A DNA stretch of 64,000 nucleotides from Deltaproteobacteria bacterium (GTDB taxonomy: Bacteria; Myxococcota_A; UBA796; UBA9615), in assembly GCA_023954745.1 (NCBI GenBank), contig JAGSHC010000001.1, forward strand, positions 78,356-142,355, read 5' to 3'. Each line of letters begins with the position of its first letter. Positions within the stretch are counted from its first letter, which is position 1. This document shows, one piece after another, positions 28,057 to 42,118 of the stretch. A program made the translations under genes and the position numbers. The notes below the pieces were generated by a model. It had not been told where the DNA came from and searched no databases. It saw only the letters and a program-made list of their open reading frames with translations.

Positions 28057-28923
28057 TCAGGCTCCCGAAACCGCCCGTCCTGCAAAGGGGTCGACGTCGT
28101 CGAGGACCCGCAGCGCGACATCGGGGAAGTCGGTGATGAGCGAGTTGACCCGCATTCCCACGAGCTCCCGCATCCGGATCTCCTCATTGACCGTCCACGT
28201 GTTCACCGCCAGGCCACGCAGATGCGCCTTGCGGACCATCTCCGGCGTGACCACCCTGTGGCTCGGATGGAGCGCGTACACAGACAACAGGGGAGCCGCC
28301 CAGGGACGGCGCAGGATGCGCTCCCTCAGCTGCATTCCATCGGTGGGGTAGACGAGAGCGAGGGGGGCGTCGCAGTGCAGCTTCACCCGCAGCAGCGCCA
28401 TGGGGTTGAAGCTGCTCACGATGCAGTCCGAGTAGAGGCCAGTCCGACGAATGAACTCCGCCACCGCGAGGGCGGTTCCGTCGCCTCGCGTTTGGTCCTC
28501 CTTGATCTCGATGTTGAAGCGCACCTGTCCTCGAAAGGTCTGCACGACCTCGTCGAGCAGGGGTACGGGCTCGCCAGCGAACTGCGGCCCGAAGTGGGAG
28601 CCGACGTCGATCTCCTTGAGCCTCGACCAGGACATCTTCGTGACGTCGTCGGTGATCCCAGTGAGCCGCTCGGGCGTACGGTCATGGTGAACCACGAGCT
28701 CACCGGTGCCGCAGCGGCGCACGTCGAACTCGAACCAGGGAACGCCCATGTCCGCCGCGTTGCGAAATGCAGCCATCGTGTTCTCGGGGGCGAGCCCGGC
28801 GCCGCCACGATGAGCCTGGACCTGGACATAGGCCGCGCGCTTGGGCGCCTCCTTGTGGGTCTTGCTGGACGCGCGCCCAGGCGCGCGTGGGATCTCGGAT
28901 GGGGTGTCGGACACGGCGCTCAC
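28057..28923 (-). CDS. Glycerophosphodiester phosphodiesterase
   Basis: 288 residues from GTG at 28923; a second GTG at 28914 is also possible. GDPD enzymes release glycerol 3-phosphate from glycerophosphodiesters. The TIM-barrel active site is complete: AHRGGAGLAPENT (HR and ENT), WFEFDVR (the E and D that bind the metal), VVHHDRTPERLTG (second catalytic His), NIEIKED and LAVNTWTVN. There is no clear signal peptide, so it is probably cytoplasmic (UgpQ-like). The 5' end lies 18 bases from the start assigned to the divergent Omp85-like gene. Confidence 0.92.
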   Translation of the reverse strand: MSAVSDTPSEIPRAPGRASSKTHKEAPKRAAYVQVQAHRGGAGLAPENTMAAFRNAADMGVPWFEFDVRRCGTGELVVHHDRTPERLTGITDDVTKMSWSRLKEIDVGSHFGPQFAGEPVPLLDEVVQTFRGQVRFNIEIKEDQTRGDGTALAVAEFIRRTGLYSDCIVSSFNPMALLRVKLHCDAPLALVYPTDGMQLRERILRRPWAAPLLSVYALHPSHRVVTPEMVRKAHLRGLAVNTWTVNEEIRMRELVGMRVNSLITDFPDVALRVLDDVDPFAGRAVSGA

Positions 28924-28941: not shown

Positions 28942-31695
28942 GTGTTGGCGTTCCTGGGAGCGGCGCTCCCGTCTGCCGCCGCCGAGGAGCTTCCGAACTG
29001 GAGTGTGGAGATCGACGCCACCGTTCAGGGGGACGACGGCACCATCGCCGGACGCGCCCATCTGACGGTGTGGAACCCCACCCAACAGCCCCTCTCCTCG
29101 ATCCGTCTGTTCCTGTACCCGGAGCACTACCGCGCGAAGCCAGCTCTGGACGACATCCTCTGGGAGCGGGTGTATCCGGGGATCTGGGAGCCGGGCGGCA
29201 TGTCCCTGGGGTTCGTAAGGCACCTTCGTGAGGACGGTGGCACCAGCGGACTCACATGGCGCCGCATCGAGGATGGCCCGCCCATGGCAGAGGTCGACCT
29301 CCCCGGGCCGCTGCTCCCCGGCGAGTCGACCACCCTGGAGATCCCGTTCCTCACCCAGGTCCCGCGCAAGTACGGCACCTTCGGGCGCGCGCGCGGAATT
29401 TTGACCGCCTCGGGCGGCTGGCATCCGATGCCGGTCACCCTGACCCCAGAGGGCGAATGGGTGGCCGATGCCGCCCCACCCCCGGCGGACTACTCGATTC
29501 AGCTGACGACGTCGTCAGCGCACGCGGTCGTGCTCGGGGACGCGGTGGACGTGCCCCGGTCCCGCACTCGGCTGGGAGCAGACTTCGTACCCACTGCCGC
29601 ACCGTTGGGTGGATCCTCGACCGTCACCCTGGATGGCGACGCGCGACGCACCCACTGGTCAGGCAAGGCTCGGTGGGTCGGCGTCACCGTGCATCGACGG
29701 GCGACCCAGCGCGACATTCCTCTGGAGGACGGCTCTACGGTCACATGGGTCGGGCGTCCCCTGAGCAAGCCGCAGGTGCGCTGGATCCGACGCGCTGCCC
29801 ACGCAGTTCGGCGGACCGAGGTGGAGCTTGGCCTCGAGGTGGAGCCGCGCGATGTCCTGCTGCTCGAGGCCCCCCTGCGGCGCCGGCTGGTCGAAGAGTG
29901 GGAGGGCGCCCTCTTCGTCTCCGACCGCTATCTGGAGGCTGAGGCCCCGTTCTGGCGCTACCACGACGTGCACCTCGCTCGGGCCCTGCTGGCCCACGAC
30001 ATGGAGAGTCTCATCCAGGGGGCGGAGCCGCCGCGCATGGCCCCCTTCGTCCTCGAAGCGCTCTCCTGGGAGCTCGTGGGGGACTATCTCCAGACCCGCT
30101 GGAAGAACCACGTGGGCCTGCGGAACCTCCTCCAACGCTTCTCCTTCTTCCCCCAGGTGGAGACGCTCCTCGAGACGCCGGCGTTTCCCTTCGCGGACCA
30201 GATCTTCGACAACCCCTGGATCGTCGATCCGCTCTCGGCCGACATCCGGCGGTTCAACCGGCCGCTCCGCTCCGGGCGAACGCTTTCGCTTCGGCTGGAT
30301 GACCGCGTCGGCACCGCGAGCAAGCGCCAGTCAATGCTTCGGTACCTCCGGGGGCAGACCTCACGACCGCTCTTCGTCGCGATGGCAGCAGACGCAGGCC
30401 AGGAGATCGACGAGCTGGCGAACAGCTGGTTGGGCTCGGTGCCGCGGGTGGACTTCCAGCTCGAGACCATCGAGCGCGATCGGACCGAAGGGGGCCTGCA
30501 TCGCACCACGGTCACCGCGCGCCGGGTGGAGCTGGAGGGGGTCTCCCCCGATGAGGTGGTCGAGGTTCGCCTCTCGCCGGGTCATGGACGCACCAAGGGC
30601 AGGGTGACGCTTCGCTGGACGGGGAGCGAGGAGGTCGCGACTTGGGAGGTCTTGAGCCGACGGCGCATGCACGTGGTGGAGATCGATCCCCAAGCGCGTC
30701 TGACGGAGCTGGACGAGAACGGACTCAACCTCCGGCAGGACAACCGCCGCCCCGGTCTCCTCCGGGTGAGCGGCTTTGGCTACGCCGGGTTGTCGATCAC
30801 CGGTCGGGGCTTCGAAGCCTACGGCCTGCTGAACATCCGCCCCCGGCACAGCGCGAGACACCAGGTGAACCTCCGGGCGTTCACGAACGAGCAGTCCCTG
30901 GCTGGGGGAGGCGTCACCTATGCGCACTACTTCGGCCCGCCCCGTTGGGGACTGAACCTGAAGCACCGCGTGGTCTTCACCGTGGACGTATCGCTCCTGA
31001 ACCAGAACTTTCGGGAGACCGACGCGCCGCTGCTCTCGCGGATCTCGGCGGGCTATGTCTACGAGACCCGATCGAACAGCATGATGCCCACGAAGGGGGG
31101 GCGGTTCTCCGTCACGGTCACCGGAGGCCGCGACTTCTCTCTGAAGAAGGAGCAGGCCAGGAGCATCACCGAGGCGGGATTCATCGGGCTGGACGTGCAA
31201 GCGATTCGACTGCTGAAGCTGCACCCTCATCACGTGTTGGCCCTGCGCGGCAAGGCCGGCTTCGTGCTCGGGGAGGTGGAGCACAGTCGCATCACCCTGG
31301 GTGGCAACGCAGATCTCCGGGGGATCCCGGAGCGTGCGGTGCTGACCCCCGCTCGGGTTCTCGGCGTCGTAGAATGGCGTCATCTCTTCTTCAAGGACGC
31401 AGACATCCCGCTTCCGTTCCAGCGCGTGCGTGGACTTCAAGGCGGGCTCTTCATCGAGGGGGCTCTTGCTGCAAAGGGCTTCGACGAGGCCCCCGGCGTG
31501 GAGGACCTGCACTTCTCGGTGGGCTACGGCTTCCGGTGGTTTGTCGACTGGCTCGGGGTCCTGCCTGGCGCCTGGGGAATGGACTTCGCATACACCCCGG
31601 GCACGACGCCGGGGCGACTCCCCATTGGCTTCTTCCCCGAGGACTGGCCCGAAGTGCCGTTCCAGGTCTACTTCGTGGGCTCGCAGAGCTTCTAG
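28942..31695 (+). CDS. M1-peptidase-like domain fused to an Omp85-like outer-membrane barrel
   Basis: 917 residues from GTG at 28942. A signal-like stretch (LAFLGAALPSAAAEE) is short, so the true start may be upstream (GTG at 28855 would overlap the GDPD gene). Residues 15-220 look like the beta-sandwich N-domain of M1 aminopeptidases (DGTIAGRAHLTVWNPT, SSIRLFLYPEHYR). Around 340-385 a region resembling the M1 site (ARALLAHDMESLI, APFVLEALSWELVGDYL) lacks HExxH, so it is probably inactive. From about 600 a barrel follows (LLRVSGFGYAGLSI..), with an Omp85-like lid motif ITLGGNADLRGIP, then VLGVVEWRHLFF, and a terminal Phe (VGSQSF). Such fusions parallel patatin-Omp85 proteins. Function unknown. 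Confidence 0.72.
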   Translation: MLAFLGAALPSAAAEELPNWSVEIDATVQGDDGTIAGRAHLTVWNPTQQPLSSIRLFLYPEHYRAKPALDDILWERVYPGIWEPGGMSLGFVRHLREDGGTSGLTWRRIEDGPPMAEVDLPGPLLPGESTTLEIPFLTQVPRKYGTFGRARGILTASGGWHPMPVTLTPEGEWVADAAPPPADYSIQLTTSSAHAVVLGDAVDVPRSRTRLGADFVPTAAPLGGSSTVTLDGDARRTHWSGKARWVGVTVHRRATQRDIPLEDGSTVTWVGRPLSKPQVRWIRRAAHAVRRTEVELGLEVEPRDVLLLEAPLRRRLVEEWEGALFVSDRYLEAEAPFWRYHDVHLARALLAHDMESLIQGAEPPRMAPFVLEALSWELVGDYLQTRWKNHVGLRNLLQRFSFFPQVETLLETPAFPFADQIFDNPWIVDPLSADIRRFNRPLRSGRTLSLRLDDRVGTASKRQSMLRYLRGQTSRPLFVAMAADAGQEIDELANSWLGSVPRVDFQLETIERDRTEGGLHRTTVTARRVELEGVSPDEVVEVRLSPGHGRTKGRVTLRWTGSEEVATWEVLSRRRMHVVEIDPQARLTELDENGLNLRQDNRRPGLLRVSGFGYAGLSITGRGFEAYGLLNIRPRHSARHQVNLRAFTNEQSLAGGGVTYAHYFGPPRWGLNLKHRVVFTVDVSLLNQNFRETDAPLLSRISAGYVYETRSNSMMPTKGGRFSVTVTGGRDFSLKKEQARSITEAGFIGLDVQAIRLLKLHPHHVLALRGKAGFVLGEVEHSRITLGGNADLRGIPERAVLTPARVLGVVEWRHLFFKDADIPLPFQRVRGLQGGLFIEGALAAKGFDEAPGVEDLHFSVGYGFRWFVDWLGVLPGAWGMDFAYTPGTTPGRLPIGFFPEDWPEVPFQVYFVGSQSF

Positions 31696-32293: not shown

Positions 32294-32478
32294 AGAACCC
32301 CGCTTCCAAAGGGTTTCTTCGTTTCTCGAGGTCGGCTAGGGCACCGGAGAGCCCGGTGAGATTGCAGGTCCGCCCTGGATCAAACTTGTCGGCATGGGGT
32401 ATGACCGCTTCCATTCCCGGCCCGCGCGCCTGCCCTCAGGGGAGTTGGCTTGCCGCACGAGACCGGATGGAGGATTCA

Positions 32479-35400
32479 ATGGCGTCCTGTTTGCGCTCCC
32501 TTATCGCCGCATCTGCAACTCTCGCGGCTCTGATTCCTGCCTCTGCACTGGCCCAAGGCGGGCCTGACAGCAGCGGATATCTCTGGAGCTCGGCTCCGTA
32601 CGACTTCGTCGTATTGGACCCAGCGGCTGGAGGTCTCGGCACCGTCGAGTCGATCACGGGCTCGAGCTTCGAGATCGACGTGGCCCTGCCCTGGGCCGGT
32701 GGCTTCTCGTTCTACGGGAACTCCTACACCGACATCACGGTGTCCGAAGAAGGCGGCATCACCATGGGTGCCGGGGGCAACATGTTCGGGGGCAACGGCT
32801 CCCTGCCGGACACGTCGTCCTCCTCGGCAGACATCGCGGTCTTCTGGGATGAACTCGACGCGTGGGACTTCGGTGCGAGCAGCTCCAATGGCGGGCTGTT
32901 CACCTACTACGACTCCGCTGCGGATCGTTTCATCGTCTCGTGGGAGAACGTCTCCGAGGGCGGGGACGACGCCACGTTGTCGTTCCAGGCGCACCTGTAC
33001 GGCAACGGTGAGATCACGTTCCACTACGCGGACGTCACCAGCGAAGACTTCATCAGCTCCTCCACCGGCGTGGACAACAACAGCTTCGGCAACAGCGCCA
33101 CGGTAGGGATCCAGGACTTCACCGGCGGAACGGCTGCCTCCGGCAACGCGCTGCAGATTTCGTACAACACGCCTTCGCTCGTTGATGGCGTCACTGCCTA
33201 CAGCATCGTGCAGTGCGTGGACGTCGACGGCGACGGTGGGTACGCCGAGTCTTGCGGCGGCGACGACTGCGACGACGCCGACCCGCTGATCTTCGCGGGT
33301 CAGGCTGAGGTCTGCTCCGACGGCGTCGACCAGGACTGCAACGGATACGACCAGGTGTCCGACCAGGACCTCGACACGTTCCTCAACCCCGCCTGCGGCG
33401 GTGACGACTGCGACGACCTCGACCCGCTGCTGAACCCGGCCAGCGACCAGGACGCCGATGGCTCCCTCGGCTGCACCGACTGCGACGACAACGACGCGAC
33501 GGCGGTCCCCGGCGGCCTCGAGATCTGCGACGGCGTCGACAACGACTGCGACGGGACCTTCGCCTATGGCCTGACCTTCGGTGACAACGCGAACAGCACC
33601 TTCGGGCCGGGCGGAAACCGTGGTCGCGGTTCCTGGTGGGACATCACGACGGACGTCACCCTCACCGAGCTCGGCGCCAACATGGGCGTCCCCGCTGGCG
33701 AGGACCTCACCTTCGGCATCTACGAGGGCGTTCAGGGTGGCTCGACCTTCACCCAGGTCTGGACCGGCACGATCACCTCGACGGACGGTGCTCTCGCCGA
33801 CCGCATGATCCCCGTGGGCTACCCGCTGACGAGCGGCAACCGGTACTTCTTCGGGTACGTCTGGAGTGCCAGCTCGCTCTACGGCTACAACACCGCTGGT
33901 CGCAGCGCGATGCCGACCACGCCGTTCGGCACCATGACCGACGGCGCCACCATCAGCGGCAGCAGCCTGCCGACGAACCCCACGAGCACTTCGTCCACCT
34001 ACTACTCGGCCATCGTCTCCTTCAGCGACGCGGCCGCCGAGCTGCTCGACTCGGACGCCGACGGCATCTCGGCTTGCCTCGGCGACTGCGACGACTCGGA
34101 CGCGACGGCAGTTCCCGGCGGGACCGAGTTCTGCGGTGACGGAGTGGACAACGACTGCTCGGGTGTCGCCGATGACATCGACGCGGACCTCGACGGCGAG
34201 ATCGCGGCCCTCTGCGGTGGCACGGACTGCAACGACGCAGACGCGACCATCAACACTGCCGCGGTGGAACTCTGCGACGCCATCGACAGCGACTGCGACG
34301 GCCTCGTCGACGCCAACGACACGGACGTGGGCACGGTCCTCGACGCGCCGGTGCTTCTCACGGACGCACCGGCTGCGGTGATCGACGGCACCACGCCGAT
34401 TCAAACGAGCAGCGTGACCGTGGCGGGCACCACCAACCCGGTGCTCGACATCAACGTGACGGTGGACGTCACCCACGCCTGGACCGGTGACGTGGACATG
34501 AGTCTCACGTCGCCCACTGGGACCGTCATCGACCTCGTGACCGGGATCGGAGGCTCCAGCGACAACTTCACGAACACCGTGTTCGATGATCAGGCGTCCG
34601 CGACGATCGGGAGCGGCAGCGCGCCTTACACCGGCTCCTTCATTCCCGAGACCCCCCTCGCGACGTTCAGCGGCGAGGCAGCGGACGGAGTCTGGACCCT
34701 CACGGTCGAGGACACCTTCCCGAGCGCGGACGACGGAGTTCTCAACTCCTGGACCCTCGAGCTCACCACGGGCATCGCCTCCGACATCGACGGTGACGGC
34801 TGGGTGGATGCGGTGTACTGCGCTGGCGCCGACTGCGACGACACCGATGCGGCCCTGAACCCGGGCGCCGCTGAGATCTGCGGTGATTCGCTGGACCAGG
34901 ACTGCGACGGCGTCGATCTCATCGATGATGTCGACCTCGACACCTTCACCTCGGTGGCTTGCGGCGGCGACGACTGCGACGACACCGACCCCAACGTGTT
35001 CAACGGCTCGGACTTCGACCTCGACCTCGCCCTCGGGTGCCAGGACGACTGCGACGACAACGACGCCACGGCCAACCCCAACGGCGTCGAGGTTTGCAAC
35101 GACGGCATCGACCAGGACTGCAGCGGCGCCGACCTCGTGGGCACCATCGACAACGACCTCGACGGTGAGAACACCTGCACCGACTGCGACGACACCAACC
35201 CCGCCATCAACGCGGCGGCTACCGAGGTGTGCGGCGACGGCATCGACAACAACTGCTCCGGCACCGCGGACGACGTGGACGCGGACGGCGACGGCGACTT
35301 CAGCCTCGAGTGCGGCGGCGGTGACTGCGACGAAGCAGACGCCACCGTGTTCGCAGGGGCGACGGAAGCCTGCGACGGCATCGACGGTGACTGCGACGGT

Positions 35401-38397
35401 CTCGAGGACGGCCAGGACACGGACCTCCTCCCTGCGGGCAGCGCCGTGAGCGGTACGAACGCTCCTGGCTCGGGGATCAGCAGTACCAACCCGCTGACCA
35501 CCGACACGATCACCATCGCGTCGGGCACCACCGATACGATCATCGACGTCAACCTGACCATCGACATCACCCACACCTGGCTCGACGACCTGGACATCTT
35601 CCTCGTCTCGCCGGATGGCGTGTCGGTGGAGATCGTGACGGACATCGGAAGCAGCGGCGACGACTTCACCAACACGGTGTTCGACGACCAGGCGGCCACC
35701 CCGATTCCCGACTCGTCGTCCGAGGCGCCCTTCACGGGGACCTACCAGCCTGAGGGGTCCCTCGCGGCCTTCAACGGCGGCACGGTGGACGGTGTCTGGA
35801 CCCTCGAGATCACGGACGACGCCGGCGGTGACAACGGGACTCTCAACAGCTGGACGATCGACCTGCAGTACGGCGCGAGCCCCGATGCGGACGGCGACGG
35901 CTGGTACGCCGCGTCCTTCTGCTCCTTCGGCGACTGCGACGACGACCCGCTCGTGAACGTGGACGCGGCGCTCACCAACCCCGGCGCGGCCGAGGTTTGC
36001 GGCGACACCATCGACCAGGACTGCGACGGCGCGGACCTGGTGGCGGACATCGACCTCGACACCTACAGCTCGGTGGCGTGCGGCGGCGACGACTGCGACG
36101 ACGCAGACGCGACCGTCAACGTGGCCGCGACCGAGGTGTGCAACGACACCATCGACAACGACTGCGACGCGCTGACCCTCGACGTGGACGATGTCGACGG
36201 CGACGGGTTCGACTGCATCGCGGACTGCGACGACAACGACGACCTCTCCTACCCCGGCTTCTACGAGCTCTGCAACGACGGCGCGGACAACGACTGCAAC
36301 CCGGCGACGCCCGACCTCAACGACGCCGACGGCGACGGTGACGACTGCACCGTGGACTGCGACGACACGAACCCGCTGTTCGGACCCAGCCAGACCGAGC
36401 TGCTCTGCTCCGGCTTCGATGAGGACTGCGACTTCGGCGTGAGCACCCCGGACATCGACGACGGTGACCTCGACGGGTTCAACTGCGACGAGGAGTGCCT
36501 CGACACCGACCCGGCGGTGAACCCCGCCGCGGTGGAGGTGAACTGCGACGGTCTGGACAACGACTGCGACCCGGCGACCGAAGGCGAGGTCGACGTCGAC
36601 GGCGACGGTTCCACCTGCGGATTCGACTGCGACGACAACGAGCCGCTCGCATTCCCCGGCAACGTGGAAGCGTGCAACGACAGCGTCGACAACGACTGCG
36701 ACCCGACCACGGTCGACGACTTCGACATCGACCTCGACGGCGTCACTTGCGTCACCGACTGCGACGACAACGACCCGCTCAGCTTCCCGGGAGCCCCCGA
36801 GATTTGCGCGGACGGAATCGACCAGGACTGCGACCTGAGCATCGATGAAGTCGCCAACGACGCCTACGACCTGTCGGACGACGACTCGGTGCTCATCGGG
36901 CTCTGCGGCATCTCGTTCCCCTTCTGCGGAACGAACTGGGACACGGTCTACGTCTCGTCCAACGGGCGGATCACCTTCGGCTTCGACTCTGGTGAGCACA
37001 CGGAGTCGGCGGCGGTTCTCCTCTCGGAGGCGCCGCAGATTGCGGCCTTCTGGAACGACCTCGACCCCTCCGCGGGCGGCACGGTCGAAGTCCAGGAGAC
37101 CCCGAACGCTGTGGTGGTGACCTACACCGACGTCCCGGAGCTCGGCGTCGCCGGCTCGGCCAACACCGCGACGGTGACCCTCTTCGACGACGGTACTGCC
37201 AGCTTCGTGTACGGCAGCCTGAGCATGGGTGACGGACTCGTCGGCTTCTCCTGCGGCACCAGCGGGGACGTCGTCGAGACGGATGTCAGCGAGTACGAGT
37301 TCGCCTCCAACCAGTGGGCCGTCGGGCAGGGCACCGAGTCCGCCGTGTACGAGCTGTTCTCGGGCACCAACCCCAACGACCTCGCGGACTCCACCGTGGA
37401 CTTCTGCCTCAGTGGCGGAGACGACGCGGACGGTGACGGCTGGACGGACACCTGCGGTGACTGCGATGACGCGGCCGCCGATGTGTTCCCCGGCGCCGAC
37501 GATGTCTGCGGTGACAGCGTCGATCAGGATTGCGACGGCACGGCCGACAACGCCGACCTCGATGGCGACGGTGAGATTGACGTGGCCTGTGGCGGCGTCG
37601 ACTGCGATGACCTCAACGAGGACATCAACACCGGAGCGACGGAGATCTGCAACGGCATCGATGACGACTGCTCGGGTGCTCCCGAGGATGGCGGCGCCGA
37701 TGACGACGGTGACGGCTTCCTCATCTGCGGCGGTGACTGCGACGACACCAACGACGCGATCAACCCCGACGCGGCTGAGGTCTGCGACCAGGTCGACAAC
37801 GACTGCGACGGCGCGCTCGACAACGGGTTCACCCCCGACTTCGACAACGACGGTCAGGTCTCTGACGACTGCGGTGGCGACGACTGCGACGACACCAACG
37901 ACGCCGTCTTCGTCGGCGCGGACGAAATCTGCGACCTCGCGGACAACGACTGCAACGGCGAGATCGACGAGATTGACGTGGATGAGGACACCTTCATCGA
38001 CGGCAACTGCAACGGCGACGACTGCAACGACAACGACGCAGCGGTGAACCCCGGCGCGGCCGAGGTGCCCTACGACGGAATCGACAACGACTGCAGCGGC
38101 GGCGACGTCGTCGACGCGGACGGTGACGGCTTCTTCGGTGGAGAGTCCGGCACGGACTGCAACGACGGCGACGCAGCGGTGAACCCCGACGCAGAGGAAA
38201 TCTGCGACGACGACATCGACAACAACTGCAACGGCGGCACCGACCAGGGCGACAAGGACAACGACATCGACGCCGATGCTGTCTGCAGTGACTGCAACTG
38301 CAGCTCGTCGCTCATCGACGATGACGCGCCGACCGGTTCGGCGATGATGCTCCTCGGCCTCGTGGGCCTGATGGGCATGCGCCGTCGCCGCCAGTAG
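32479..38397 (+). CDS. Giant MopE-repeat surface protein with two P-domains and sorting-like tail
   Basis: 1972 residues. ATG at 32479 has GGAGG five to six bases ahead; ATG at 32467 is an alternative. Signal peptide SLIAASATLAALIPASALAQ. The N-terminal 220 residues are nidogen-like (ADIAVFWDELDAWDF, DRFIVSWENVSEGGDDATLS). About 22 MopE-type putative metal-binding motifs follow (CGGDDCDDADPL, DQDCNG..). Two proprotein-convertase P-domain-like beta sandwiches interrupt them (nt about 34380-34790 and 35440-35870; TNTVFDDQA, GVWTLEITDDAGGDNGTLNS). A second nidogen-like segment is at nt 36880-37400. The end is CNCSS, a hydrophobic helix and RRRRQ, a MYXO-CTERM-like tail. Probably calcium- or copper-binding and surface-exposed; inference from family. 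Confidence 0.88.
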   Translation: MASCLRSLIAASATLAALIPASALAQGGPDSSGYLWSSAPYDFVVLDPAAGGLGTVESITGSSFEIDVALPWAGGFSFYGNSYTDITVSEEGGITMGAGGNMFGGNGSLPDTSSSSADIAVFWDELDAWDFGASSSNGGLFTYYDSAADRFIVSWENVSEGGDDATLSFQAHLYGNGEITFHYADVTSEDFISSSTGVDNNSFGNSATVGIQDFTGGTAASGNALQISYNTPSLVDGVTAYSIVQCVDVDGDGGYAESCGGDDCDDADPLIFAGQAEVCSDGVDQDCNGYDQVSDQDLDTFLNPACGGDDCDDLDPLLNPASDQDADGSLGCTDCDDNDATAVPGGLEICDGVDNDCDGTFAYGLTFGDNANSTFGPGGNRGRGSWWDITTDVTLTELGANMGVPAGEDLTFGIYEGVQGGSTFTQVWTGTITSTDGALADRMIPVGYPLTSGNRYFFGYVWSASSLYGYNTAGRSAMPTTPFGTMTDGATISGSSLPTNPTSTSSTYYSAIVSFSDAAAELLDSDADGISACLGDCDDSDATAVPGGTEFCGDGVDNDCSGVADDIDADLDGEIAALCGGTDCNDADATINTAAVELCDAIDSDCDGLVDANDTDVGTVLDAPVLLTDAPAAVIDGTTPIQTSSVTVAGTTNPVLDINVTVDVTHAWTGDVDMSLTSPTGTVIDLVTGIGGSSDNFTNTVFDDQASATIGSGSAPYTGSFIPETPLATFSGEAADGVWTLTVEDTFPSADDGVLNSWTLELTTGIASDIDGDGWVDAVYCAGADCDDTDAALNPGAAEICGDSLDQDCDGVDLIDDVDLDTFTSVACGGDDCDDTDPNVFNGSDFDLDLALGCQDDCDDNDATANPNGVEVCNDGIDQDCSGADLVGTIDNDLDGENTCTDCDDTNPAINAAATEVCGDGIDNNCSGTADDVDADGDGDFSLECGGGDCDEADATVFAGATEACDGIDGDCDGLEDGQDTDLLPAGSAVSGTNAPGSGISSTNPLTTDTITIASGTTDTIIDVNLTIDITHTWLDDLDIFLVSPDGVSVEIVTDIGSSGDDFTNTVFDDQAATPIPDSSSEAPFTGTYQPEGSLAAFNGGTVDGVWTLEITDDAGGDNGTLNSWTIDLQYGASPDADGDGWYAASFCSFGDCDDDPLVNVDAALTNPGAAEVCGDTIDQDCDGADLVADIDLDTYSSVACGGDDCDDADATVNVAATEVCNDTIDNDCDALTLDVDDVDGDGFDCIADCDDNDDLSYPGFYELCNDGADNDCNPATPDLNDADGDGDDCTVDCDDTNPLFGPSQTELLCSGFDEDCDFGVSTPDIDDGDLDGFNCDEECLDTDPAVNPAAVEVNCDGLDNDCDPATEGEVDVDGDGSTCGFDCDDNEPLAFPGNVEACNDSVDNDCDPTTVDDFDIDLDGVTCVTDCDDNDPLSFPGAPEICADGIDQDCDLSIDEVANDAYDLSDDDSVLIGLCGISFPFCGTNWDTVYVSSNGRITFGFDSGEHTESAAVLLSEAPQIAAFWNDLDPSAGGTVEVQETPNAVVVTYTDVPELGVAGSANTATVTLFDDGTASFVYGSLSMGDGLVGFSCGTSGDVVETDVSEYEFASNQWAVGQGTESAVYELFSGTNPNDLADSTVDFCLSGGDDADGDGWTDTCGDCDDAAADVFPGADDVCGDSVDQDCDGTADNADLDGDGEIDVACGGVDCDDLNEDINTGATEICNGIDDDCSGAPEDGGADDDGDGFLICGGDCDDTNDAINPDAAEVCDQVDNDCDGALDNGFTPDFDNDGQVSDDCGGDDCDDTNDAVFVGADEICDLADNDCNGEIDEIDVDEDTFIDGNCNGDDCNDNDAAVNPGAAEVPYDGIDNDCSGGDVVDADGDGFFGGESGTDCNDGDAAVNPDAEEICDDDIDNNCNGGTDQGDKDNDIDADAVCSDCNCSSSLIDDDAPTGSAMMLLGLVGLMGMRRRRQ

Positions 38398-38500: not shown

Positions 38501-41500
38501 ATGGACCTCAGGCCACGTGTCCTTCTGCTGCCGCTCCTCACCCTCCTCCTTCCAGGCGCTGTGCTGGCGCAGGGGGGCCCCGACGCATCGGGATACATCT
38601 GGGGGACCACCGCCTACGACTACGTGCCTCTGGATGGCTCAGGGGGCGTGACGGGCACCGTCGCGCCGGTGTTCACCAATGGCGCGGTCGACGTCCCTCT
38701 TCCCTTCCCTTTCCCCTGGTACGCCGGGACCTCGAGCCTGGTGTCCGTCTCCGGGAACGGTGCGCTCCGGCTCACCACCGGCGGCCTGGCCGGGGCAATG
38801 AACCAGCCCATCCCGAGCCCTCCGGGCCCCCGCCCCGACATCGCGGTCCTGTGGGACGCCCTGGACCCGTCTTCGGGAGGCGCAGTGCGGTGGTACGACG
38901 ACGTACCCGGGAATCGCTTCATCGTCTCCTGGGAAGGCATTCCCCACGCCAGTGGCGTCGGCTCGGTCTCCTTCCAGGCCCACCTGTCGCCCGACGGATC
39001 GGTGCGGATGCACTGGCTGGACACGCAGCTGGGGAACCCGATCTTCGACAACGGGGCGTCGGCCACGGTGGGGATTCAGGACGCCCTCGGTGGGAGCTTG
39101 GGTGCAGGGAACGCCCTGCAGTACTCGTACAACGCCCCAAACATCTTCGACCAGAGCGCGTTGTATCTCGGCCCATGCACCGGAGACGTCGACGGGGACG
39201 GCTACGTCAGCAGCGCATGTGGCGGCGACGACTGCGACGACTTCGACGCGGCCCTCAGCCCTGGGGCTGTCGAGATCTGCGACGACGGCGACGACCAGGA
39301 CTGCGATGGCTCGGACCAGTCGGCGGACGGCGACGGCGACGGGTATGACTCCGTCGCGTGTGGGGGCGACGACTGTGACGACGACGACCTCAACGTCTCG
39401 CCCGGCGCGACCGAGGTCGCGTGCGACACCATCGACAACGACTGCGAGCCCACCACCCTCGACCTCTCGGACGGCGACGGCGACGGCGACGCCTGCGATG
39501 TGGACTGCGACGACACCGATCCCACCATCGGTCCCAGCGCGCCCGAGGTTTGCGACGATCTGACGGATCAGGACTGTGACGGCGCCGATCTCGTGTCCGA
39601 CGCGGACGGCGACACCTACGCCAACGCCGACTGCGGCGGGCCCGACTGCGATGACCTCGACGCCTCCGTGAACCCGGGGGTCGACGCGGACGGAGACACC
39701 TGGAACGCGTGCCTCGACTGCGACGACTCGGACTTCACCGCCTACCCCGGCAACGGCGCCGAGGTGTGTGACGGGGTCGACTCCGACTGCGACGGCCTCG
39801 AGGACGGACTGGACGCCGACGTGGGCGCGGACGCCGATGGCGACGGCTGGGTGGACTCCTGCGGGGACTGCGACGGCTCTGATCCGTTGACGTACCCCGA
39901 CGCACCCGAGATCTGTGGGGACGGACTCGACCAGGACTGCGACGGCTCCGACCTCGCCGCGGACATCGACGCCGACACCTTCACCAGCGTGGCCTGTGGC
40001 GGTGATGACTGCGACGACGCGGACCCCGCCGTGAACTCCTCCGTGGCCGAGGTCTGTAACGACGCGATCGACAACGACTGCGATGAGTTGACCCTCGACC
40101 TGTTCGACGTCGATGGGGATGGGTCCGACTGCGCCTCCGATTGCGACGACGCCGACGCGTCGATCGCGCCCGGCGCCCCCGAGGTGTGCGACGACACCAT
40201 CGACCAGGACTGCGACGGCTCGGATCTGGTGGGGGACCTCGACGGGGACGGCGTGAGCGGTGCCGCGTGCGGAGGCACCGACTGCGACGACAACGACGCG
40301 TTCGTCTATCCGGGAGCGAACGAGTTCGTGTGCGACGGAATCGACCAGGCGTGCGATGGCCTTGGGGACGAGGACGACCTCGACGGCGACGGCTACGCCT
40401 TATGTGACGACGACTGCGACGACGGCGACCCTCTCGTTTGGTCTGGCGCACCGGAGCTCTGCGGGGACGGCGTAGACAACGACTGCGACGGAGCTCTCGA
40501 CGAGTTCGTCGACGACGACTACGTCCTGGACGACGACGGCGGCCTCACCTTCAGCATCTGTAGCTTCAGCTTCCCGTTCTGCGGCGAGAGCTTCGACAGC
40601 TTCACCTTGCACGCCAATGGGCGCGTGACCTTCGGCGACGCCGGAGGCGGTGGATTCAGCGATGGATCGGGCGCCGATGTGACCTCTGCAGGCTCGCTGA
40701 GCGACCTGCACGGAGAGGCGCCGCAGCTCGCGTTTCTCTGGAGCGATCTCGACCCCACGATCTCCGGGACCGTGCACGTCACGGAGGACAGCAACACCGC
40801 CAGCATGGTCGTGACCTACACCAACGTGACCCAGCACCCGGCGTGGCCGGGCGCGGTGCTCGGCGGCAACTCGGTGACCGTGACGTTCGGCGGAGCGGGC
40901 TTCGCGACCTACGAGTACGGGGCGATCTCCGGCGAGGTCGCCATCGCCGGCTGGTCCTGCGGGAACACCTCGCCCGTCGCCATGGATCTGAGCGATCCCG
41001 GGTTGCCTGAGGCCGCGCCGCGCATCGGGCAGGGCAGCGAGACCGCGATCTTCCAGGTGTTCGAGGGCGCGGCGAGCGGCGGAGACAGCGTCGACCTCGA
41101 CAATCTCGACGTCTCGTTCTGCCTGACGGACGGCGTGGACGGCGACGGCGACGGCTGGAGCGACCAGTGCGGCGACTGCGACGACTCGGCCGCGGACGTC
41201 TACCCGGGAGCCCCGGAGCTGTGTGACGGAGTCGATCACGACTGCAACGGCTCGGTGGATGACGCGGACGCGGACGACGATGGGTACACGGCGGTCGCCT
41301 GCGGCGGCGCGGACTGCGACGACGCCGATCCCATCACGAACCCGGAGGCGACCGAGGTCTGCGATGGGCTCGACAATGACTGCGACGGCCTGCCCGAAGC
41401 GGGTGGCGAGGACGCGGACGCGGACGGCTGGCTGGTCTGTGGCGGCGACTGCGACGACAGCCGCTTCGACGTGAACCCCGGCGCTCTCGAGATCTGCAAC

Positions 41501-42118
41501 GAGGTCGACGACAACTGCGACACGTTCATCGACGAGGGGTGGAGCTCCGATCAGGACGCCGATGGCACCTTGAACCCCGACTGCGGTGGGGACGACTGCG
41601 ACGATCTGGATCCGGACGTGTCCCCCATCGATGACGAGGTCTGCGACGGCAAGGACAACGACTGCAACGACGTCGTGGACGACCTCGACGCCGACTCGGA
41701 TGGCTTCGTCGACGTGGCGTGCGGGGGGGACGACTGCAACGACCTGCGACCCCAGGTGTTCCCCGGCGCAGACGAGGCATGCGATGGCCTCGACACGGAC
41801 TGCAACGGAGTCGAGAACGACGTGGACCTCGATGGCGATGGAGCCATCGACGCCGACTGTGGCGGTGACGACTGCCACGACGGCGACCCTGCGATCGTCC
41901 CCGGAGCCGAGGAGATCTGCGACGACGGCGAAGACAACGACTGCAACGGAGGGGTGGACCAGGGTGGGGACGACCTCGTCGCCGACCCGGTCTGCACCGG
42001 CTGTGCCTGCAGCGCCTCCGGAACGGCGGACGACAGCCGGGCGGCCTTGGCGATGCTGCTTCTGTGGCCACTCTGTGGCCTGCGGCGGCGGCGAGGCGTC
42101 TCTACACTCCGCGGGTGA
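38501..42118 (+). CDS. MopE-repeat surface protein, paralog of the preceding gene
   Basis: 1205 residues. Signal peptide LLLPLLTLLLPGAVLAQGG; the mature start AQGGPDASGYIWGTTAYDY parallels AQGGPDSSGYLWSSAPYDF of the preceding protein, so they are paralogs. Nidogen-like N-domain (PDIAVLWDALDPSSGG, NRFIVSWEG). About 16 MopE-type motifs (CGGDDCDD, DQDCDGSD), with a second nidogen-like part at nt 40500-41130 (FPFCGESFDSFTLHANGRVTF). No P-domains, which accounts for much of its shorter length. C-terminus CACSASG, hydrophobic helix (LAMLLLWPLCGL), RRRR and seven further residues. TGA overlaps the GTG of the methyltransferase, an odd coupling of a surface protein to cytoplasmic genes. Confidence 0.86.
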   Translation: MDLRPRVLLLPLLTLLLPGAVLAQGGPDASGYIWGTTAYDYVPLDGSGGVTGTVAPVFTNGAVDVPLPFPFPWYAGTSSLVSVSGNGALRLTTGGLAGAMNQPIPSPPGPRPDIAVLWDALDPSSGGAVRWYDDVPGNRFIVSWEGIPHASGVGSVSFQAHLSPDGSVRMHWLDTQLGNPIFDNGASATVGIQDALGGSLGAGNALQYSYNAPNIFDQSALYLGPCTGDVDGDGYVSSACGGDDCDDFDAALSPGAVEICDDGDDQDCDGSDQSADGDGDGYDSVACGGDDCDDDDLNVSPGATEVACDTIDNDCEPTTLDLSDGDGDGDACDVDCDDTDPTIGPSAPEVCDDLTDQDCDGADLVSDADGDTYANADCGGPDCDDLDASVNPGVDADGDTWNACLDCDDSDFTAYPGNGAEVCDGVDSDCDGLEDGLDADVGADADGDGWVDSCGDCDGSDPLTYPDAPEICGDGLDQDCDGSDLAADIDADTFTSVACGGDDCDDADPAVNSSVAEVCNDAIDNDCDELTLDLFDVDGDGSDCASDCDDADASIAPGAPEVCDDTIDQDCDGSDLVGDLDGDGVSGAACGGTDCDDNDAFVYPGANEFVCDGIDQACDGLGDEDDLDGDGYALCDDDCDDGDPLVWSGAPELCGDGVDNDCDGALDEFVDDDYVLDDDGGLTFSICSFSFPFCGESFDSFTLHANGRVTFGDAGGGGFSDGSGADVTSAGSLSDLHGEAPQLAFLWSDLDPTISGTVHVTEDSNTASMVVTYTNVTQHPAWPGAVLGGNSVTVTFGGAGFATYEYGAISGEVAIAGWSCGNTSPVAMDLSDPGLPEAAPRIGQGSETAIFQVFEGAASGGDSVDLDNLDVSFCLTDGVDGDGDGWSDQCGDCDDSAADVYPGAPELCDGVDHDCNGSVDDADADDDGYTAVACGGADCDDADPITNPEATEVCDGLDNDCDGLPEAGGEDADADGWLVCGGDCDDSRFDVNPGALEICNEVDDNCDTFIDEGWSSDQDADGTLNPDCGGDDCDDLDPDVSPIDDEVCDGKDNDCNDVVDDLDADSDGFVDVACGGDDCNDLRPQVFPGADEACDGLDTDCNGVENDVDLDGDGAIDADCGGDDCHDGDPAIVPGAEEICDDGEDNDCNGGVDQGGDDLVADPVCTGCACSASGTADDSRAALAMLLLWPLCGLRRRRGVSTLRG

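Follow-up and report, generated by a model that had tools for sequence, protein, structure and literature searches.

A predicted fusion of an inactive M1 peptidase-like domain with an Omp85-type outer-membrane barrel, and its conserved gene neighbour

The window analysed here is a stretch of 64,000 nucleotides from a Deltaproteobacteria bacterium of the phylum Myxococcota_A (assembly GCA_023954745.1, contig JAGSHC010000001.1, positions 78,356 to 142,355), and the gene of interest is an open frame at 28942-31695 (+). Its product of 917 residues, ending ...YFVGSQSF, is described, from the open reading frame, an AlphaFold2 model and homologs, as a pseudo-M1 aminopeptidase domain fused to an Omp85-type barrel. 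The start of the gene is uncertain, lying either at the GTG at 28942 or at an upstream GTG near 28855, because the stop-to-stop frame is longer than this and extends upstream and because a glycerophosphodiester phosphodiesterase gene on the opposite strand (28057-28919 (-); PF03009, E 2e-38), whose own start abuts or overlaps that of the fusion gene, intervenes before the next forward-strand gene, C1. Inspection of the sequence suggests a probable signal peptide at 28942-28983 (+), LAFLGAALPSAAA followed by EE, with an n-region that varies with the start chosen. An ortholog in the same genus is 60% identical, and the differences between the two genes at the three codon positions (0.30/0.25/0.50) fall mostly at the third, the pattern of purifying selection. 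Judged from this codon pattern and from the homologs across the class, the frame is a real gene.

The model, built on an alignment of 79 members of the family, has a pLDDT of 92.3 and a pTM of 0.91, while prediction from the single sequence gave a pLDDT of 32. It shows M1 domains I, II and III in order, with the barrel directly after domain III in the position that the helical domain IV occupies in M1 enzymes. Domain I (residues ~18-271; 28993-29754 (+)), delimited by the model strands, holds conserved PRxxG..G and NGxWYP segments (141-164). The thermolysin-like domain II (residues ~272-500; 29755-30441 (+)), with a degenerate zinc site, is placed by the fold matches and by profile alignment with catalytic M1 enzymes, and domain III is a predicted β-sandwich (residues ~502-581; 30445-30684 (+)). 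The best matches to the model in the PDB, found with Foldseek, were the M1 aminopeptidases IRAP and ERAP1 (best E 7.8e-18), and structural alignment to ERAP1 with VIA-align gave a Z of 24.7. Alignment of the family profile, using hhalign, with one of 44 catalytic M1 peptidases of this phylum gave a probability of 97.7 and an E of 2.3e-12 over residues 21-588; with only the members from other classes of the phylum the E was 1.1e-18. Negative controls gave E values of 0.26 and 0.36 with reversed profiles and of 0.11 and 0.44 with unrelated neighbour families. The N-terminal ~585 residues match the M1 fold of domains I-III, in the same order as in ERAP1, IRAP and Thermoplasma F3. Neither Pfam, NCBIfam nor phmmer against the PDB recognised this part of the protein, and since Pfam and NCBIfam gave no match, automatic annotation will probably overlook it. 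A catalytic M1-type protein with the motif HETTH (L179:1104-3215) is possibly the nearest active relative; the match is between its N-terminal domain and residues 15-164 of the fusion protein (E 2.6e-5).

In contrast to the M1 aminopeptidases, the fusion protein lacks HExxH, the second glutamate ligand and the GxMEN exopeptidase motif, and carries a barrel instead of domain IV. The helix of residues 335-361 (29944-30024 (+)) is the one that hhalign aligns with the zinc helix of M1 enzymes, and no HExxH occurs at this position in any of the 79 aligned rows; the full HExxH(18x)E zinc site is thus absent. The segment aligned with GxMEN reads R-L-A-R-x-G-P-G in the family consensus. Two possible remnants of a zinc motif were considered and rejected: HEVLH in L108, which lies off the zinc site and was counted as chance, and HDMES at residues 352-356 of the fusion protein, which is absent from the 60% identical ortholog. 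A protein combining HExxH with a barrel, as an ancestor might, was sought within the phylum and not found. Together the alignments strongly support an M1 domain that is catalytically dead across the family. Both elements of the preliminary description of this region, an M1 scaffold and the loss of HExxH from it, therefore stand, the first on the fold matches and the controlled profile alignments and the second for all members examined.

Other residues of the domain are nearly invariant. A signature at what would have been the edge of the active site, S327-D328-R329...H341 (29920-29964 (+)), is retained at Ser327 in 74/79 rows, Asp328 in 76/79, Arg329 in 65/79 and His341 in 75/79. In domain I, Pro141 (77/79), Gly148 (76/79), Gly158 (73/79), Trp160 (66/79) and Pro162 (78/79) are similarly conserved, and Pro141, Gly148, Gly158 and Pro162 lie in or near the segment that hhalign pairs with the M1 WFP region. 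This pattern suggests a conserved cleft with a role other than zinc binding. A new, zinc-independent catalysis through Ser327, Asp328 and His341, each kept in 74 to 76 of the 79 members and in several classes, is very improbable; Ser327 and Asp328 are adjacent in sequence, and the residues may be structural.

The C-terminal ~310 residues form a barrel homologous to that of Omp85 proteins (residues 607-917; 30760-31692 (+)). Pfam gave a weak PF01103 match, the family profile matches solved structures of BamA and TamA through the barrel (best E 3.5e-10), and VIA-align superposes the model on Fusobacterium nucleatum BamA (9ccg), the closest fold match, with a Z of 22.4 and an rmsd of 3.0 over 267 residues. 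In common with BamA the protein has the loop-6 motif, here GGNADLRG (residues 787-794; 31300-31323 (+)), in which Gly787, Gly788 and Arg793 are kept in 76, 73 and 55 of the 79 rows, and an acidic partner, Glu811, on the following strand, VVEWR (809-813; 31366-31380 (+); Glu811 78/79, Arg813 79/79), as well as a C-terminal phenylalanine. These three sequence marks had been picked out beforehand as signs of an Omp85-type barrel, and all are present. The canonical Omp85 barrel has 16 strands, and most Omp85 proteins, though not all, have at least one POTRA domain. In the single predicted model of this one family member DSSP assigns 14 barrel strands of at least three residues between 607 and 912, and counting from the model strand list the missing pair lies before loop 6, with five strands after it as in BamA. 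No POTRA was found at the locus in Pfam scans or in a genome-wide PF07244 search, and in the model domain III abuts the barrel. Of the structure proposed at the outset, a 16-strand Omp85 barrel beside a gluzincin-like fold, both folds are recovered, with 14 strands in the model in place of 16, and the suggested POTRA search came back empty. The same genome encodes a separate BamA with five POTRAs (G000:C293); unlike this housekeeping insertase the fusion protein has no POTRAs that could be found, 14 predicted strands and an M1-like N-terminal domain, and the presence of the separate BamA indicates that it is not the housekeeping insertase itself.

Homologs were sought within one phylum. A protein search matched 64 of 94 related genomes. 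With a profile built from 28 homologs, 66 of the 71 genomes of the class gave a hit, in two of them (G018 and G047) to the barrel region only, leaving about 64 with the fusion; divergent members occur in other classes of the phylum. In ~50 near and far homolog regions the M1-like part precedes the barrel in every case, save for a few fragments at contig edges, and prediction and homology together strongly support the M1-like/Omp85 architecture. No earlier description of such a fusion was found in the open-licence literature. In the available text of the Omp85 survey of Heinz and Lithgow, which sets out ten architectures, none is named as M1-like (PMC4104836). Two subfamilies without POTRA given there, 'Metallo' and 'noNterm', share that absence with the fusion protein, and the first also has a metal-enzyme domain, although this is PF00149 and unrelated to M1 (PMC4104836). 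Within this phylum and this literature the M1-like domain adds a new type of N-terminal domain to the Omp85 superfamily.

The closest parallel is PlpD, in which an enzyme-like domain likewise precedes an Omp85 barrel, but there it is a patatin, a POTRA is retained and, in contrast, the zinc site of the M1-like domain here is dead (PMC11116518). The fusion protein has no PF01734 match and its model is an M1 fold, so it is, as had been suspected, a different kind of Omp85 fusion from the patatin type. The M1-like part had also been called a passenger; its attachment to a barrel holds, whereas by analogy with PlpD, whose patatin domain proved periplasmic, it is more likely to be periplasmic than secreted (PMC11116518). 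Carriage of the domain through the barrel to the cell surface, in the manner of Type V secretion, would follow the older view of PlpD-type proteins recounted in the same paper (PMC11116518), but a folded domain of ~600 residues, modelled tight against the barrel, would hardly pass through it, and we regard this as the least probable of the explanations considered.

The gene C1 (27168-28028 (+)) encodes a putative outer-membrane β-barrel protein of 286 residues with a signal peptide, the assignment resting on a barrel-like sequence; one member of its family matches OMP_b-brl, weakly. Of the 62 genomes that have both genes, 57 place C1 immediately upstream of the fusion gene, 53 of them with the two on one strand and 4 with a divergent arrangement. 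Counted within the class from a single-sequence query, both genes are present in 62 genomes, one without the other in 2 and 2, and neither in 5, an agreement of 67/71 (Fisher p 3e-5, ignoring shared ancestry). The conservation of this pairing is strongly supported. The principal alternative to an assembly role is that the two proteins are subunits of a stable outer-membrane complex for transport, adhesion or envelope anchoring, with the barrel as a membrane anchor. The tight pairing and co-occurrence would fit such a complex, as would the modelled 14-strand barrel without POTRA and the example of PlpD, an Omp85 barrel with no proven assembly role (PMC11116518). However, the loop-6 and Glu/Arg residues tied to Omp85 function are conserved, and the fact that another lineage has a different neighbour protein is easier to reconcile with a client than with a fixed subunit, so that we consider the stable complex rather unlikely.

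That other neighbour is a protein with a signal peptide and a C-terminal OmpA domain, whose gene adjoins the fusion gene and, where both could be resolved, diverges from it; the protein is probably an outer-membrane barrel. Large signal-peptide proteins of this kind, with carboxypeptidase-regulatory and OmpA domains, are encoded next to the fusion gene at L207:11255-13642, L209:10154-12913, L215:771-3713 and L218:3874-6849, and at some of these loci the two frames overlap, the exact starts being uncertain. In two further genomes there are also genes for patatin-like phospholipases near distant members, directly downstream at L149:7034-7993 and nearby at L148:3714-4643, a point of note because PlpD joins a patatin domain to its Omp85 barrel.

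Downstream of the fusion gene, as the preliminary description had it, is an NlpC/P60 gene, C2 (31700-32293 (+); PF00877, E 1e-5), which encodes a lipoprotein with the lipobox LAGC (Cys codon 31742-31744) and has an uncertain start codon. The catalytic Cys, His and His are conserved in the alignment, and 12 of the 21 neighbourhoods contain such a gene close by. The presence of an intact hydrolase in about half of the neighbourhoods, and the peptide-binding cleft natural to an M1 scaffold, could be accounted for if the pseudo-M1 domain, anchored by the barrel, acted in the periplasm to sense or regulate, say, peptidoglycan peptides or the hydrolase. The link is weaker than that to C1, though, and NlpC/P60 was not found in fusion-gene neighbourhoods of other classes (nor was C1), and this explanation is improbable. 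Further along are two very long open frames, 32440-38397 and 38501-42118, whose products cluster together by BLAST; the first has many MopE-like repeats rich in Cys and Asp (CDD...EVCGDGxDxDC), and its end, a hydrophobic stretch with RRRR, resembles a MYXO-CTERM-type sorting signal. On the other side of C1, 23691-27225 (-) holds molybdenum-cofactor genes (MoaA-like, MobA/MobB-like and MoeA-like), members of which often adjoin the C1-fusion pair in the class. A plasmid search found no matches.

An M1 fold that serves protein binding rather than catalysis has precedent in TAF2, an M1-like pseudopeptidase that is eukaryotic and has no membrane barrel. Tma108, an M1-family protein whose substrate pocket binds nascent proteins, offers a second, although it too is eukaryotic and without a barrel and, unlike the fusion protein, keeps most of its active-site residues (PMC11266112). 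Both are cytosolic or nuclear. Until PlpD, every Omp85 protein that had been characterised was one that assembles or translocates proteins (PMC11116518). We infer, tentatively and at a little less than an even chance, that the fusion protein is an Omp85-type protein dedicated to C1, as its assembly factor or partner, and that the dead M1 domain replaces the POTRAs as a periplasmic receptor for the client. Given the barrel topology and the analogy with PlpD, the pseudo-M1 domain would sit in the periplasm beneath the barrel, and its former peptide cleft, in view of the Tma108 precedent, would bind the unfolded client. Because of the gene pairing this would most simply be C1, or an equivalent protein in other lineages. 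The barrel would then help the client to fold and insert, or form a stable complex with it, and the NlpC/P60 lipoprotein would trim the peptidoglycan locally to make room. Several points weigh against an assembly factor: gene adjacency demonstrates a link and not an insertase-client relation, a barrel predicted to have 14 strands and lacking POTRAs might be unable to act as an insertase, C1 is itself only a presumed barrel, and PlpD is an Omp85 barrel that carries a domain with no known assembly role (PMC11116518).

Extended to the whole phylum, the proposal becomes that of a class of machines dedicated to outer-membrane assembly, with a dead peptidase standing in for the POTRAs as receptor of the client, an Omp85 barrel of 14 strands, and for each machine a client of its own encoded by a partner gene; this is possible but more doubtful. 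The architecture itself points to a peptidase scaffold repurposed at the place where POTRAs normally bind clients, and the fusion protein with its conserved neighbour offers a natural system for asking whether insertion by Omp85 proteins needs POTRAs or 16 strands.
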